This document shows, piece after piece, positions 9,513 through 15,338 of a stretch of DNA of 64,000 nucleotides; position 1 is the stretch's first letter; the number at the start of each line of letters is the position of its first letter. This DNA comes from Chloroflexota bacterium (GTDB taxonomy: Bacteria; Chloroflexota; Limnocylindria; Limnocylindrales; CSP1-4). A program made the position numbers and the translations under genes. Where the stretch lies: assembly GCA_016191345.1 (NCBI GenBank), contig JACPOU010000025.1, positions 1 through 64,000 of the forward strand. Direction: 5' to 3'. Under the pieces are notes generated by a model, which worked only from the letters and a program-made list of their open reading frames with translations, made no database searches and had not been told where the DNA came from.

Positions 9513-10730
9513 GTGCCCGAGGTCGAGGTCCGGCTGACCCAGGTCTACAAGGCCTTCGGCGGCGACGCGGTGGGACGTCGCGTGGCGAAGTACGTCGAGC
9601 CCTCCGAGAGCGGCGCCATCATCGCCGTCGACCACATCGACCTCGACGTCCAGGACGGCGAGTTCTTCAGCCTCCTCGGGCCATCCGGCTGCGGCAAGAC
9701 GACGACGCTCCGGATGATCGGCGGCTTCGAGCAGCCCACGTCCGGGAAGATCGAGCTGGCGGGCGTGGACGTGACGTGGCTTCCGCCGTACAAGCGCAAC
9801 GTCAACACGGTCTTCCAGAACTACGCCCTCTTCCCCCACCTCTCGATCTTCGACAACGTCGCCTTCGGGCTGCGGCGGCGCCAGGTCGCCGAGAAGGAGG
9901 TCCGGGAGCGGGTGACCCTGATGCTCGAGCTCGTGGAGCTGCCGGGCTACGAGCGCCGCAAGCCCGGCCAGATCTCGGGCGGCCAGGCCCAGCGCGTCGC
10001 GCTCGCCCGGGCGCTCGTCAACAAGCCGGCCGTCCTCCTCCTGGACGAGCCGCTCGGCGCCCTGGACCTCAAGCTCCGGAAGCAGATGCAGGTGGAGCTG
10101 AAGCGGATCCAGCAGGAGGTCGGGATCACGTTCATCTACGTGACCCATGACCAGGAGGAGGCGATGACGATGTCTGATCGCATCGCCGTCATGAACCGCG
10201 GCAGATACGAGCAGCTCGCCGACCCGGAGACGCTCTACGAACGGCCGAGGACGGAGTTCGTGGCCGGCTTCCTGGGGGTCAGCAACCTCCTCCCCGCGAC
10301 CGTCGAGGGGACGAGCGGTGCGTACGCCGCGGCCCGGCTCGCTGACGGGACCGTCGTCCAGGTCCCGGCCGGGGCCGTCGAGGGCAAGGCGTCCGTCAAG
10401 ATCGGCGTCCGGCCGGAGAAGATCCGGATGCACGCCTCCGCCGACGACCTGCCGGAGCACATGAACCGGCTCCGCGGCCGGGTGGTGGACGCTTCGTACC
10501 TCGGGGCCTCGACGAGCTACATCATCGAATCGAGCGCCGGCGACCGGCTGACGGTCTTCGAGCAGAACGTCGAGCGCACGTCGCACGGCTCCCTGCACCG
10601 GCCCGGAGAGGACGTCGTCCTCGCCTGGTCCCCGGACCACACCTTCGCGGTCGGCCCCGGTCGGGACGACCTGCCCGCCCAGTCCGCTGCCCGTGCCGCG
10701 GTGGAACCCCAGAAGGAGCGCGCGTCATGA
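9513..10730 (+). CDS. potA: Polyamine ABC transporter ATP-binding protein
   Basis: This is the ATPase that drives import by the PotBC permease. The 405-residue product has Walker A GPSGCGKTTT, the Q-loop in FQNYALFPH, signature ISGGQAQR, Walker B LLLDEPLGALD and the switch His in YVTHD, followed by a TOBE regulatory domain (about 280 to 370). A run of about 20 residues (GGDAVGRRVAKY and beyond) is inserted near the N-terminus before the usual AVDHIDLDV strand. The GTG start is poorly supported: GGAGG lies about 12 bases upstream. The stop overlaps potD by ATGA. Confidence 0.93.
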   Translation: MPEVEVRLTQVYKAFGGDAVGRRVAKYVEPSESGAIIAVDHIDLDVQDGEFFSLLGPSGCGKTTTLRMIGGFEQPTSGKIELAGVDVTWLPPYKRNVNTVFQNYALFPHLSIFDNVAFGLRRRQVAEKEVRERVTLMLELVELPGYERRKPGQISGGQAQRVALARALVNKPAVLLLDEPLGALDLKLRKQMQVELKRIQQEVGITFIYVTHDQEEAMTMSDRIAVMNRGRYEQLADPETLYERPRTEFVAGFLGVSNLLPATVEGTSGAYAAARLADGTVVQVPAGAVEGKASVKIGVRPEKIRMHASADDLPEHMNRLRGRVVDASYLGASTSYIIESSAGDRLTVFEQNVERTSHGSLHRPGEDVVLAWSPDHTFAVGPGRDDLPAQSAARAAVEPQKERAS

Positions 10731-11974
10731 CCGATCTCGAGCAGCGCGTCCGCGTCGTCCCCGTCACCCGCCGGGCGTTCCTGGTCGGGACCGGCATGAC
10801 GGGCGTGGCCGCCTTCCTCGCCGCCTGCAACAGCGGCGCCTCGTCGAGCCCGACCTCCGGCGCGAGCACGGAGCCCAGCGTCGGCCCCAGCGTCGGCCCC
10901 ACCGTCGAGCCGACCCAGGAAGCCATCGTCGGCCCGCTCAACTTCGCGAACTGGCCCGCCTACATCGACCTGACCGAGGACGAGAGCTCGTCGCCGACCC
11001 TCACCGACTTCGAGGCGAAGTACGGCATCAAGGTGAACTACCAGGAGAAGATCGAGGCGAACGAGGACTTCTACGCCACGATCGCGCCCCAGCTGGGGGC
11101 GAACCCGCCGCTCGCGACCGGCTGGGACCTCATCGTCCTGACCGACTACATGGCGGCCCGCGTCGTGCGCGCCGGGTGGATCGAGGCGTTCAACCCCGCG
11201 AACATCCCGACGGCCCTCGCCAACGTCCGCGACGAGCTCAGGGGCCTCGATTGGGACCCCGACATGAAGATGCACATGCCGTGGCAGTCAGGCGCGACCG
11301 GAGTTGGCTACAACGTCAAGTCGACGAAGCGCGACCTCACGAAGGTCGCCGACCTCTTCGACCCGGCGTTTGCCAAGAAGGTGACCCTGCTCACCGGGTA
11401 CGCCGACACGTTCTCGCTCGTCGGCCTGCTCCTGAAGGCGAAGGGCGACATCTCGAACGAGCCGGCATCCATGACCTACGAGGACGCCCAGAAAGTCCGC
11501 GACTACATCAAGCCCTTCGTCGCGAGCGGCCACATCCGGGCCTTCACCGGCAACGAGTACCTCCAGGACTTCGGGTCCGGCGACACCTGGGCGGCGATGG
11601 TCTGGTCCGGCGACCTGGCCTCGTCCGGCGGCAAGGACGACCGCTTCGTCTTCCCCGATGAAGGCTCGATCATCTGGACGGACAACATGCTGATCCCGAA
11701 GGGCGTCGAGCACAAGCGCGCCGCCGAGGCGATGGTCGACTTCGTCTACGACGTCAAGAACGCCGCGCGCCTCGCCGCCTGGATCTACTACATCTCGCCC
11801 GTGAAGGGTGTGGCAGAGGAGATCAAGAAGACGGATCCTGCCCTCGCGACGAATCCCCTGCTCTTCCCGCCCCCCGACATCGCCGCGAAGATGTACCCCC
11901 AGATGGCGCTGTCGGACGAGGAGGACGTCAAGTGGACCGAGCTCTCCTCCAACCTCGAGGAGAACGCCGGCTAG
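10727..11974 (+). CDS. potD: Polyamine-binding lipoprotein of ABC transporter
   Basis: This is the extracytoplasmic solute receptor delivering spermidine or putrescine to the permease. The 415-residue product has a Tat-like TRRAFLVG motif, a hydrophobic stretch and the lipobox LAAC (about residue 33), then a Ser/Thr-rich tether and the PotD/PotF fold (NFANWPAYID, LTDYMAARVV, MPWQSGATG). It should be anchored as a lipoprotein outside the membrane. It overlaps potA by 4 bases, and about 80 bases separate it from potB. The ligand (putrescine, spermidine or a related amine) cannot be fixed from sequence. Confidence 0.9.
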   Translation: MTDLEQRVRVVPVTRRAFLVGTGMTGVAAFLAACNSGASSSPTSGASTEPSVGPSVGPTVEPTQEAIVGPLNFANWPAYIDLTEDESSSPTLTDFEAKYGIKVNYQEKIEANEDFYATIAPQLGANPPLATGWDLIVLTDYMAARVVRAGWIEAFNPANIPTALANVRDELRGLDWDPDMKMHMPWQSGATGVGYNVKSTKRDLTKVADLFDPAFAKKVTLLTGYADTFSLVGLLLKAKGDISNEPASMTYEDAQKVRDYIKPFVASGHIRAFTGNEYLQDFGSGDTWAAMVWSGDLASSGGKDDRFVFPDEGSIIWTDNMLIPKGVEHKRAAEAMVDFVYDVKNAARLAAWIYYISPVKGVAEEIKKTDPALATNPLLFPPPDIAAKMYPQMALSDEEDVKWTELSSNLEENAG

Positions 11975-12054: not shown

Positions 12055-13095
12055 GTGAGAAGCCGTCGGGCGATCCCCTATCTGCTCATGACCCCGGGAC
12101 TGCTCTGGCTGGTCCTGTTCTTCATCGTGCCCAACATCCAGATGCTGATCTTCAGCCTCTCGGAGGGCACACTCCGGACGGGCTTCGTCACGCCGCCGAC
12201 CGTGTTCGACACGCAGAACTACACCGAGAGCATCGGGAAGTTTGCTACCAACTTCGCGAACTCGATCGTCTACGGCGGCCTGGCGACGCTCCTCTGCTTC
12301 CTCATCGGCTACCCGCTCGCGTACGCCATCGCCTTCAAGGGCGGGCGGTGGAAGAACCTCCTGCTGTTCCTCGTCATCGCCCCGTTCTTCACCAGCTTCC
12401 TGATCCGGACCATCAGCTGGAAGATCATCCTCGGCAACAATGGGCCGCTCCTCGGGATCGTCCGCGACGGCCTGGGCCTCGTGCCGGACAACTTCAGCAT
12501 CCTCGGCACGCCGCTCGCCGTCGTCGGCGGGCTGACCTACCAGTTCCTGCCCTTCATGGTCCTGCCGCTCTATGTCTCGCTGGACAAGATCGACCGCCGG
12601 CTCATCGAGGCCGCCCAGGACCTGTACGCGGGATCGTGGCGGCGCGGGGGGCTCACGGTCGGCGCGATCACGGGGGCCGTCGCGGCGGTGTCAATCCAGA
12701 TCGGCCTCGGCTACGGGGCGCTCATCGGCGAGGATGCGGCGCCCCTCGCCGTCGTCGGCACCGGCCTCGTCGGCGCGGTGCTGGGCGGGCTCGTCGGCCG
12801 CTTCCTCGTCAGCGAATCGTTCATCCGGATCACCTTCCCGCTGTCGCTGCCGGGCGTTTTCGCGGCCTCGATCCTGACGTTCATCCCCGCCATCGGCGAC
12901 TACGTCAACGCCCAGCTCCTCGGCAGCCCGAAGACGCAGATGATCGGCAACACGATCCAGGGCCGCTTCCTCGACCAGAACGACTACCCGATCGCGGCCG
13001 CGCTCGCGTTCCTGCTCATGGCCGGCATCCTTCTCGCGATCGCGCTCTACGCCCGCATCCTGGGCACCGAGGAGCTGACGGGAGGCACGGCATGA
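12055..13095 (+). CDS. potB: Polyamine ABC transporter permease with split EAA loop
   Basis: The 346-residue membrane protein is the first permease of the importer. The N-terminal half (PYLLMTPGLLWLVLFF and following helices) is typical PotB. The cytoplasmic EAA loop that docks on PotA starts normally (residues 185 to 195, EAAQDLYAGSW) but is interrupted by about 59 residues containing two hydrophobic segments. It then resumes at residue 255 with FIRITFPLSLPGV. The insertion is in frame and has no stop codon. The GTG start lacks a clear ribosome-binding site. The stop overlaps the potC start by ATGA. Confidence 0.88.
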   Translation: MRSRRAIPYLLMTPGLLWLVLFFIVPNIQMLIFSLSEGTLRTGFVTPPTVFDTQNYTESIGKFATNFANSIVYGGLATLLCFLIGYPLAYAIAFKGGRWKNLLLFLVIAPFFTSFLIRTISWKIILGNNGPLLGIVRDGLGLVPDNFSILGTPLAVVGGLTYQFLPFMVLPLYVSLDKIDRRLIEAAQDLYAGSWRRGGLTVGAITGAVAAVSIQIGLGYGALIGEDAAPLAVVGTGLVGAVLGGLVGRFLVSESFIRITFPLSLPGVFAASILTFIPAIGDYVNAQLLGSPKTQMIGNTIQGRFLDQNDYPIAAALAFLLMAGILLAIALYARILGTEELTGGTA

Positions 13096-14006
13096 GCGCC
13101 GCGGCCGGGACCCGCACCACCCTCATGCCCGCCGGCCCGACGATGGCCCAGCGCCTCACGTCCCTCCTCGACCGCTGGCTCCTCAAGGTCTTCGCGGTCC
13201 TGGCGATCGCGTACCTCATGGTCCCGATCGCGGTCATGATCATCTTCTCCTTCAACGACCCGGTCGGAAAGTTCAACTTCGTCTGGGCGAAGTTCTCGCT
13301 CGATGCGTGGATGAGCCCGCTCAACCGCCCGGGCCTGGCCGAGGCGCTCCGGAATTCGATCTTCGTGGCGATCCTCGGGACGTTCTTCGCGACGATCCTC
13401 GGGACGCTCATCGCCCTCGCCCTGGTTCGCTACTCGTTCCGCGGCAAGAACGCAACGAACCTCCTCATCTTCATCCCGATGGCCACGCCCGAGATCGTCC
13501 TCGGGGCGAGCCTCCTCACGTTCTTCGTGGCAACGGCGACGATCGAGCCCTTCCGGTCGATCATCCCGCGGGGCATCTTCTATCCGCTCGGGTTCCAGAC
13601 GATCGTGATCGCCCACGTCATGTTCAACATCAGCTACGTCGTCGTGACGGTGAAGGCCCGCATCCAGGGCTTCGACCGCCATCTCGAGGAGGCGGCTATG
13701 GACCTCGGGGCCAACGAATGGACGACGTTCTGGAAGATCACCTTTCCACTGATCCGGCCGGGCATCGTCGCCGCGGCCCTCCTCGCCTTCTCCCTCTCGA
13801 TCGATGACTTCATCGTCACGAACTTCACGTCGGGCCTCGTGAACACCTTCCCGGTCTGGGTGTGGGGGACGATCCGCAACAACCTGCCGCCCCAGGTCCA
13901 CGTCATCGGCACCGCCATCTTCCTGATCGCGGTGACCGGGGTGGGCATCTCCGTCTGGATCCAGTCCCGGGGCGGCCGCTCCGTGGCCGCGGTCCGGCCG
14001 CGCTGA
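13092..14006 (+). CDS. potC: Polyamine ABC transporter permease
   Basis: The 304-residue product is the second permease of the importer. It has six membrane segments and an intact EAA loop (LEEAAMDLGANEWTTFWKI then TFPLIRPGI), in contrast to its partner PotB. Its start overlaps the potB stop, and it ends 9 bases before the aminotransferase gene, implying one transcript from potA to the aminotransferase. Confidence 0.93.
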   Translation: MSAAAGTRTTLMPAGPTMAQRLTSLLDRWLLKVFAVLAIAYLMVPIAVMIIFSFNDPVGKFNFVWAKFSLDAWMSPLNRPGLAEALRNSIFVAILGTFFATILGTLIALALVRYSFRGKNATNLLIFIPMATPEIVLGASLLTFFVATATIEPFRSIIPRGIFYPLGFQTIVIAHVMFNISYVVVTVKARIQGFDRHLEEAAMDLGANEWTTFWKITFPLIRPGIVAAALLAFSLSIDDFIVTNFTSGLVNTFPVWVWGTIRNNLPPQVHVIGTAIFLIAVTGVGISVWIQSRGGRSVAAVRPR

Positions 14007-14015
14007 CCGACGACC

Positions 14016-15338
14016 ATGGCCACGAACCCTGACGCTGCCCTGACCGCTCCCCTCCCCGACCACTCGGTCGTGCCGCCGGTCTGGGGCCGGATCACGAATC
14101 TCGAGGTGGACCGCGGGGAGGGCTCGTGGCTGATCACGACCGGCGGCGAGCGGTACCTCGACTACTCCTCGGGGATCGGGGTCACGAACACCGGCCACGC
14201 CCACCCTCGGGTCGTGGCCGCGATCCAGGCCCAGGCGGCCAAGCTCCTCCACGGGCAGCAGAACATCGTCTACCACGAGCCCGGGCTGCGCCTCTACGAG
14301 CGGCTCCGGGGCCTGCTGCCGGGCGGTCCATGGAGCGCCTTCCTCTCGAACTCGGGCGCCGAGGCGGTGGAGGCCTCGGTCAAGCTTGCCCGGGTGGCGA
14401 CCGGCCGGCCGGTGATCATCAGCTTCCGGGGCGGGTTCCACGGCCGGACCGCCCAGACGATGGCGCTCACGACCGCCAAGGACGTCTACCGGGCCGCCTT
14501 CGAACCGCTCCCCGGCAGCGTCTACCACACGAAGTTCCCGTACTGCTATCGCGCGGCCGGCGGCGGCCATGCGCCGGACGCGAACTGCACCTGCGACTGG
14601 GAGGCGGAGCTGGATCTCCTCTTCCACCAGGTCATCTACCCGGACCGGGTGGCGGCGATCATCGTGGAGCCCGTCCAGGGCGAGGGCGGCTACATCGTCC
14701 CGCCACCGGGATTCCTGCCCCGCCTCCGGGAGATCACCCGGGAGCACGGCATCCTGCTCATCGCCGATGAGGTCCAGACCGGCTTCGGGCGGACCGGCGA
14801 GATGTTCGCCGTCCGCCACTGGGACGTGGAGCCGGACATCCTCGTCATGGCCAAAGGGATCGCGTCCGGACTGCCGCTGTCCGGGATCCTCGCCCGGACG
14901 GAGCTCATGGATCGCCTGCCGCCGGGAACCCACGGCGGGACGTACGGCGGCAACGTCGTCTCGTGCGCGGCGGCGCTCGCCACGCTCGACGTCATCGAGG
15001 ACGAGGACCTCGTCGCCAATGCCCGGGCCCGCGGCGCGCAGCTCGTCGGCGGCCTCCGCGAACTCCAGGCGGATCACCCCGCCATCGGCGACGTCCGGGG
15101 CCTCGGGGCGATGGTCGCGATGGAGTTCGCGCAGCCCGGCAGCGCCGACGGCAAGGCCCCCGACCCCGACCTCGCGAAGCGCGTCATCGCGGCCGCCCTC
15201 GAGCGGAAGCTCATCGTCCTCTCGGCCGGCTCGTACGGCAACGTGTCCCGGATCATCCCGCCGCTCGTGACGACCCCGGACGAGGTCGATTCCGCCCTCG
15301 CCATCCTCGAGGCAAGCATCATCGCCGCCGGGGCGTGA
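14016..15338 (+). CDS. Class III PLP aminotransferase (4-aminobutyrate/putrescine type)
   Basis: The 440-residue product is a fold-type I class III aminotransferase. Key features are SNSGAEAVEASVKLAR, FRGGFHGRT, EPVQGEGGY, the Asp motif IADEVQTGFGRTG and the PLP Lys in VMAKGIASG. The last motif group matches GabT-like enzymes. Because it directly follows potABCD, the likely substrate is 4-aminobutyrate, putrescine or another omega-amine taken up by that transporter. A separate aldehyde dehydrogenase at 36669 could oxidise the semialdehyde. Exact specificity is an inference. Confidence 0.88.
   Translation: MATNPDAALTAPLPDHSVVPPVWGRITNLEVDRGEGSWLITTGGERYLDYSSGIGVTNTGHAHPRVVAAIQAQAAKLLHGQQNIVYHEPGLRLYERLRGLLPGGPWSAFLSNSGAEAVEASVKLARVATGRPVIISFRGGFHGRTAQTMALTTAKDVYRAAFEPLPGSVYHTKFPYCYRAAGGGHAPDANCTCDWEAELDLLFHQVIYPDRVAAIIVEPVQGEGGYIVPPPGFLPRLREITREHGILLIADEVQTGFGRTGEMFAVRHWDVEPDILVMAKGIASGLPLSGILARTELMDRLPPGTHGGTYGGNVVSCAAALATLDVIEDEDLVANARARGAQLVGGLRELQADHPAIGDVRGLGAMVAMEFAQPGSADGKAPDPDLAKRVIAAALERKLIVLSAGSYGNVSRIIPPLVTTPDEVDSALAILEASIIAAGA

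Follow-up and report, generated by a model that had tools for sequence, protein, structure and literature searches.

In type I ABC importers, permease and ATPase are mechanically connected mainly through the EAA loop, whose length is regarded as constrained. In MalFGK2, as described in a molecular dynamics study (PMC3150292), the EAA motif forms two short cytoplasmic helices approximately parallel to the membrane, and one of these, the coupling helix, makes the docking contact with the ATPase. The closest described system to the locus analyzed here is E. coli PotB within PotD–PotABC (8y5f and 8y5i; PMC11414716), a subunit with six membrane helices according to that report. Operon role, EAA loop, and overall fold are common to both proteins, but E. 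coli PotB has 2 residues where the protein analyzed here has 60. The uninserted PotBs of the CSP1-4 family and Limnocylindraceae share its operon order and are 56–70% identical to it (alignment of 29 sequences) but, unlike it, have a canonical EAA loop with a spacing of 19. CSP1-4, in the class Limnocylindria, is described as a soil and sediment sister of Limnocylindraceae (PMC13212565).

The window, a stretch of 64,000 nucleotides from a Chloroflexota metagenome-assembled genome (contig JACPOU010000025.1), contains a four-gene operon for a polyamine-type ABC importer, followed by an aminotransferase gene:

9513–10730, + strand: potA, ABC ATPase subunit (TIGR01187 potA, 389.5 bits against a cut-off of 355.6; PF00005 and TOBE_2)
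10727–11974, + strand: potD-like substrate-binding protein (SBP_bac_8, E 9.7e-24; PotF/PotD models below cut-off)
12055–13095, + strand: potB, insertion-bearing permease subunit, 346 amino acids, GTG start (PF00528; E. coli PotB chains, E 5e-38; fold match)
13092–14006, + strand: potC, second permease subunit, without insertion (PF00528, 60.6 bits; best NCBIfam model PotC; EAA spacing 20)
14016–15338, + strand: class-III aminotransferase, an operon neighbor and not part of the transporter (PRK08117 and GABA-transaminase models, below equivalog cut-offs)

The potB reading frame is uninterrupted from the GTG at 12055 to the stop at 13095. Its product scored 28 bits with PF00528 (cut-off 26.4), with the profile split and its best stretch at 256–334, and 186.3 bits with NF007044, the NCBIfam spermidine/putrescine permease PotB equivalog, for which the cut-off is 348; a substrate is therefore not asserted. 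Because the EAA motif and the PL that follows it are 77 rather than 19 positions apart, the window PotB is a variant, not a standard member, of the PotB-like BPD_transp_1 type I ABC importer permeases. The spermidine-contact positions of E. coli PotB named in PMC11414716 include S113, I160, F164, L213, and Y223. Three of these five differ in the window protein (S113 to F115, I160 to Q163, and Y223 to V284) and two are kept (F164 as F167 and L213 as L274), and on this comparison the substrate of the window transporter may not be spermidine.

In the alignment to E. coli PotB, residues 15–193 of the query correspond to 8y5i_B 15–190 and residues 254–332 to 8y5i_B 193–271. The 60 window residues thus stand against 2 in E. 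coli PotB, giving a net in-frame insertion of 58 residues (R196–S253, nucleotides 12640–12813) that separates EAA helix 1 from EAA helix 2 and lies 4 residues past the position of the conserved EAA glycine of E. coli PotB. This bears out the first-pass annotation, which had reported an in-frame insertion of about 59 residues in the loop. The parts of the loop are as follows:

12595–12624, + strand: coupling helix (EAA helix 1), residues 181–190, intact (AlphaFold2 helix; invariant residues in 29 sequences)
12640–12813, + strand: net insertion R196–S253, 58 residues, predicted glycine-zipper membrane hairpin (alignments, hydrophobicity, AlphaFold2, charge and zipper statistics)
12646–12705, + strand: predicted hairpin helix 1, residues 198–217, with G199-x3-G203-x3-G207 (AlphaFold2 helix; zipper in 31/31)
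12739–12807, + strand: predicted hairpin helix 2, residues 229–251, with small residues at 240, 244, and 248 (AlphaFold2; [GAS]x3Gx3[GAS] in 25/31)
12814–12843, + strand: EAA helix 2, residues 254–263, where the canonical loop resumes (AlphaFold2 helix; alignment, E. coli PotB Q193 onward)

Wherever both motifs could be recognized, the EAA-to-PL spacing in inserted relatives was 66 or 75–77, as compared with 19 in uninserted ones, so the net insert is 47 or 56–58 residues and always in frame. PotC had been called normal, and it is: the EAA motif was found at the standard spacing of 20 in 52 of 58 PotC sequences. Six gave no regular-expression match; on visual inspection the loop is normal in five of them, whereas in the sixth (G017) the PotC frame is lost close to a contig end.

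Alignment of PotB homologues from related genomes, the check proposed in the first-pass annotation, revealed the same insertion at the same site. With a profile of the EAA region, the full inserted form was found in 33 of 107 genomes of the family CSP1-4 (Chloroflexota), distributed over 10 genera; a further 31 of the 107 matched only by the parts flanking the insert, and some of these are distant paralogues. A class-level search returned the insertion in 33 of 177 genomes and a phylum-level draw in 12 of 400, in every case within the CSP1-4 family, and none was found outside it among either set. Presence is patchy within single genera, and many close relatives lack the insertion. A whole-protein search of 61 relatives gave 30 aligned PotB loci, 17 of them inserted. 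When one genome per species was scanned (genome_contigs, 84,980 species), 9 of the best 80 loci carried the insertion and the other 71 did not. The nine assemblies, all Chloroflexi, are RBG_16_72_14, Chersky_267, CF_85, FW300_bin.39, DBS2-4.bin61, KatS3mg065, CSP1-4, HEB_FP_1_bin.40, and MnB_4; all nine coincide with genomes already counted in the family search. Among plasmid records, 1437 had a PotB-like match, none of them at 60% identity or above.

For characterization of the insert, sequence statistics were compiled over 31 of the 33 inserted genomes, leaving out one fragment (G073) and one genome not fetched whole (G111). Glycine makes up 23% of the inserts and alanine 19%. Each half of the insert is hydrophobic, with Kyte–Doolittle 19-residue peaks of 1.46–2.75; in the window the two peaks are 1.79 and 1.96, and those of the other PotB membrane helices are 1.65–2.8. 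On a biological hydrophobicity scale, the two window segments sum to approximately +3 each, marginal for a lone transmembrane helix because of the many glycines. Only 2 of 868 residues in the putative transmembrane cores are charged. The turn region is acidic (40 Asp/Glu against 1 Lys/Arg), and the cytoplasmic edge, residues 196–198, is basic (45 Lys/Arg against 0 Asp/Glu), as would be expected of a hairpin with cytoplasmic ends and an outside turn. Residues R196, G199, and G203 are invariant in 31/31, and residue 207 is glycine in 28/31. A G-x3-G-x3-small pattern is present in helix 1 of all 31 inserts (shuffled mean 9.3, maximum 17 in 2000), and small-x3-G-x3-small occurs at fixed positions of helix 2 in 25 (shuffled mean 0.9, maximum 5 in 2000). 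The conserved small positions sum to 451 in each pair (203 + 248, 207 + 244, and 211 + 240), which would suit an antiparallel, tightly packed hairpin, with the pairing read from alignment columns.

An AlphaFold2 model of the window PotB, built from 60 sequences (the window and related loci), had a mean pLDDT of 89.7 and a pTM of 0.85. Helices were predicted at 181–190, 198–217, 229–251, and 254–263, with pLDDT mostly 84–91 in the hairpin, 76 in the turn block, and only approximately 70 in the linker, residues 191–200. The short insert type (KatS3mg065) was modeled in the same arrangement (mean pLDDT 90.4), and in both types the insert forms two helices of 19–23 residues with the coupling helix kept. 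Among the best 50 matches of a structure search, 8y5f_B, the E. coli PotB chain, matched the window model with a Z of 22.5 and an rmsd of 3.0, and 270 of its 273 residues were aligned; the canonical fold is therefore kept in the model, with the hairpin as an addition. Hydrophobicity, charge bias, and predicted helices thus support the earlier suggestion that the loop crosses the membrane twice more and ends up back on the cytoplasmic side, and the sequence evidence favors a two-pass transmembrane hairpin.

The insert resembles the glycine zipper 2TM domains (PF13441, PF13488, and PF05433), which likewise consist of two short Gly/Ala-rich helices with GxxxGxxxG spacing. When small residues are allowed, this spacing is present in helix 1 of 31/31 inserts and in helix 2 of 25/31. 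The known families of this type are envelope proteins, and to our knowledge none is an insert in a permease loop. Matches up to E 1 were obtained for 8 of 17 inserts with PF05433 and for 7 of 17 with PF13488; the best score, among the 10 of 17 inserts scored, was 27.1 bits against a gathering cut-off of 28.9, and ten shuffles of the best insert gave no glycine-zipper match. That the insert is a copy of a known domain was rejected, as the insert profile had no match in PDB sequences up to E 10 and the Pfam zipper matches lie below cut-off.

Selection on the insert was estimated from 15 pairs of inserted genes, in all of which Ka/Ks was below 1 (0.11–0.69, as compared with 0.04–0.31 for the rest of the gene). 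By this measure the insert is evidently under purifying selection and less constrained than the rest of PotB. A tree of PotB built without the insert columns rejected descent of the inserted forms as a single clade (p-AU 0.0008) and required six label changes, four of them forced by well-supported branches. In a tree of PotA, PotD, and PotC, the insert falls into five clades and five changes are needed; it therefore largely follows operon lineages. The inserts share an R-x-x-G-x3-G start and an S-E/Q end, which argues for their homology and makes independent gains less likely. A single gain with several later losses would fit these trees as well as recombinational exchange.

Similar splits were sought in other permeases. 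In the window's own genome no convincing second copy of the hairpin was found (best other E 0.27), and 23 of 24 PF00528 matches were unsplit. Four further inserted genomes gave 126 PF00528 matches, three of which were split, at profile position 96–97, and all three are PotB. A half match at 3–92, below cut-off, was set aside as its frame reads in translation as histidine-kinase-like; of other partial matches, one (84–177) is truncated where its contig stops, and another (53–182) is without the N-terminal part of the profile. The inserted PotB of one genome (G109) was itself missing from the PF00528 matches, which shows that split permeases can escape this screen.

Taken as a whole, we consider it reasonably probable that an in–out–in glycine-zipper hairpin anchors the elbow of the PotB coupling loop in the membrane and leaves the docking helix unaltered. 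The PotB of a PotA–PotD–PotB–PotC importer would have gained two glycine-zippered helices at the EAA-loop elbow, turning a 6-pass subunit into an 8-pass one, with the coupling helix still free to dock into PotA. In an otherwise pseudosymmetric importer, a single coupling loop out of two would thereby have its elbow held in the bilayer, which would most likely restrain loop motion as PotA opens and closes, stabilize the PotB side of the complex, or both. The data establish the insertion, its conservation, the purifying selection on it, and its hydrophobicity, charge, and zipper patterns, together with an intact coupling helix and PotB fold in a predicted model. Entry of the hairpin into the membrane, its placement against the remaining helices, and any consequence for ATP hydrolysis or transport are inferred from them. 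Against a membrane anchor count the pLDDT of only approximately 70 in linker 191–200, the marginal sums of approximately +3 for the window segments, and both the more rapid evolution of the insert than of the remaining PotB sequence and its absence from many close relatives; the last two would also fit a dispensable decoration.

An assembly error, pseudogene, intron-like element, or bypassed sequence would require the insert not to be translated as part of PotB. The locus was noticed in a single window, from a metagenome-assembled genome with 6.7% contamination, but nine separate named assemblies carry the insertion, no stop codon lies inside the matched inserted region in any of the 33 genomes, length differences are all whole codons, and Ka/Ks points to selection at the protein level. 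These explanations were rejected on that evidence and are scarcely credible; both outcomes named in the first-pass annotation as fatal to the insertion, absence from independent assemblies and a broken reading frame, were contradicted. The same annotation had also proposed that the insertion rebuilds the coupling interface. A remodeled interface, in which the insert alters the docking of the loop on PotA, would be in keeping with an insert inside the EAA loop only 4 residues past the conserved-glycine position of E. coli PotB. However, all PotBs in the alignment of 29, with or without the insertion, have the same coupling-helix residues E185, A186, D189, and L190, and the predicted helix 181–190 is uninterrupted despite the insertion. 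When 26 inserted and 22 uninserted operons were compared, the 14 most discriminating columns of PotA, which also reflect shared ancestry, all fell at residues 264–393 in the C-terminal regulatory region, and none of the 14 was in the ATPase core. Together with the retained E. coli fold, these results do not support a rebuilt interface; the interface is probably unchanged, though a subtle change is possible, and remodeling of loop docking seems very improbable.

The unchanged coupling helix and PotA core are equally what would be expected if the elbow faces away from PotA and simply tolerates a self-contained hairpin, whose retention or loss would matter little for transport. This neutral account stays alive because the insert is patchy, even within single genera, and changes more quickly than the remainder of the protein. 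It is harder to reconcile with Ka/Ks below 1 in 15/15 pairs, with the invariance of R196, G199, and G203, with a zipper register conserved across 31 sequences, and with maintenance of the hairpin over 10 genera, and we regard it as unlikely, if still a serious contender. That same register, conserved on the faces of both helices, could instead mark a docking site, the zipper face or the periplasmic turn binding another membrane protein or a second transporter and regulating through the coupling loop; the longer polar turn of the 56–58-residue type would suit such a role. Neither inserted nor uninserted loci have an extra gene within the operon, however, and gene order is A–D–B–C in both. Antiparallel pairing between the conserved small residues of helix 1 and those of helix 2 is possible (sum 451), so that no partner is needed, and we consider a docking site improbable. 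Returning to the membrane anchor, one coupling loop would then be an integral-membrane element, and we suggest, quite tentatively, that its tethered elbow transmits ATP-driven motion asymmetrically, with the bilayer or a partner protein in it perhaps adjusting the transmission.

The elbow between the EAA helices can thus accommodate a large, probably membrane-embedded module while only one of the two permease subunits carries it, and matched inserted and uninserted operons within one bacterial family provide a test of how rigid the permease–ATPase link must be. No description of such an EAA-loop insertion was found in full-text literature that includes few subscription papers, nor in the accessible parts of PMC3150292, PMC1810536, PMC3302838, and PMC11414716.

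Several minor features of these operons were also recorded. The N terminus of the PotD-like protein (10727–11974) has a twin-arginine stretch and, after it, an AAC resembling a lipobox, with a weak Pfam TAT_signal match (E 0.11). At one locus (L199, genome G035), the potB frame enters the second half of potC to give 411 amino acids. The two permease genes look fused by a deletion, which may be an assembly error. At another (L190, genome G010), the potC frame continues into the aminotransferase gene, with 703 amino acids between stops, representing either a true fusion or an assembly deletion. The class-III aminotransferase lies 3′ of potC in many inserted and uninserted operons, either directly or approximately 1 kb downstream, which suggests a shared amine catabolic theme.
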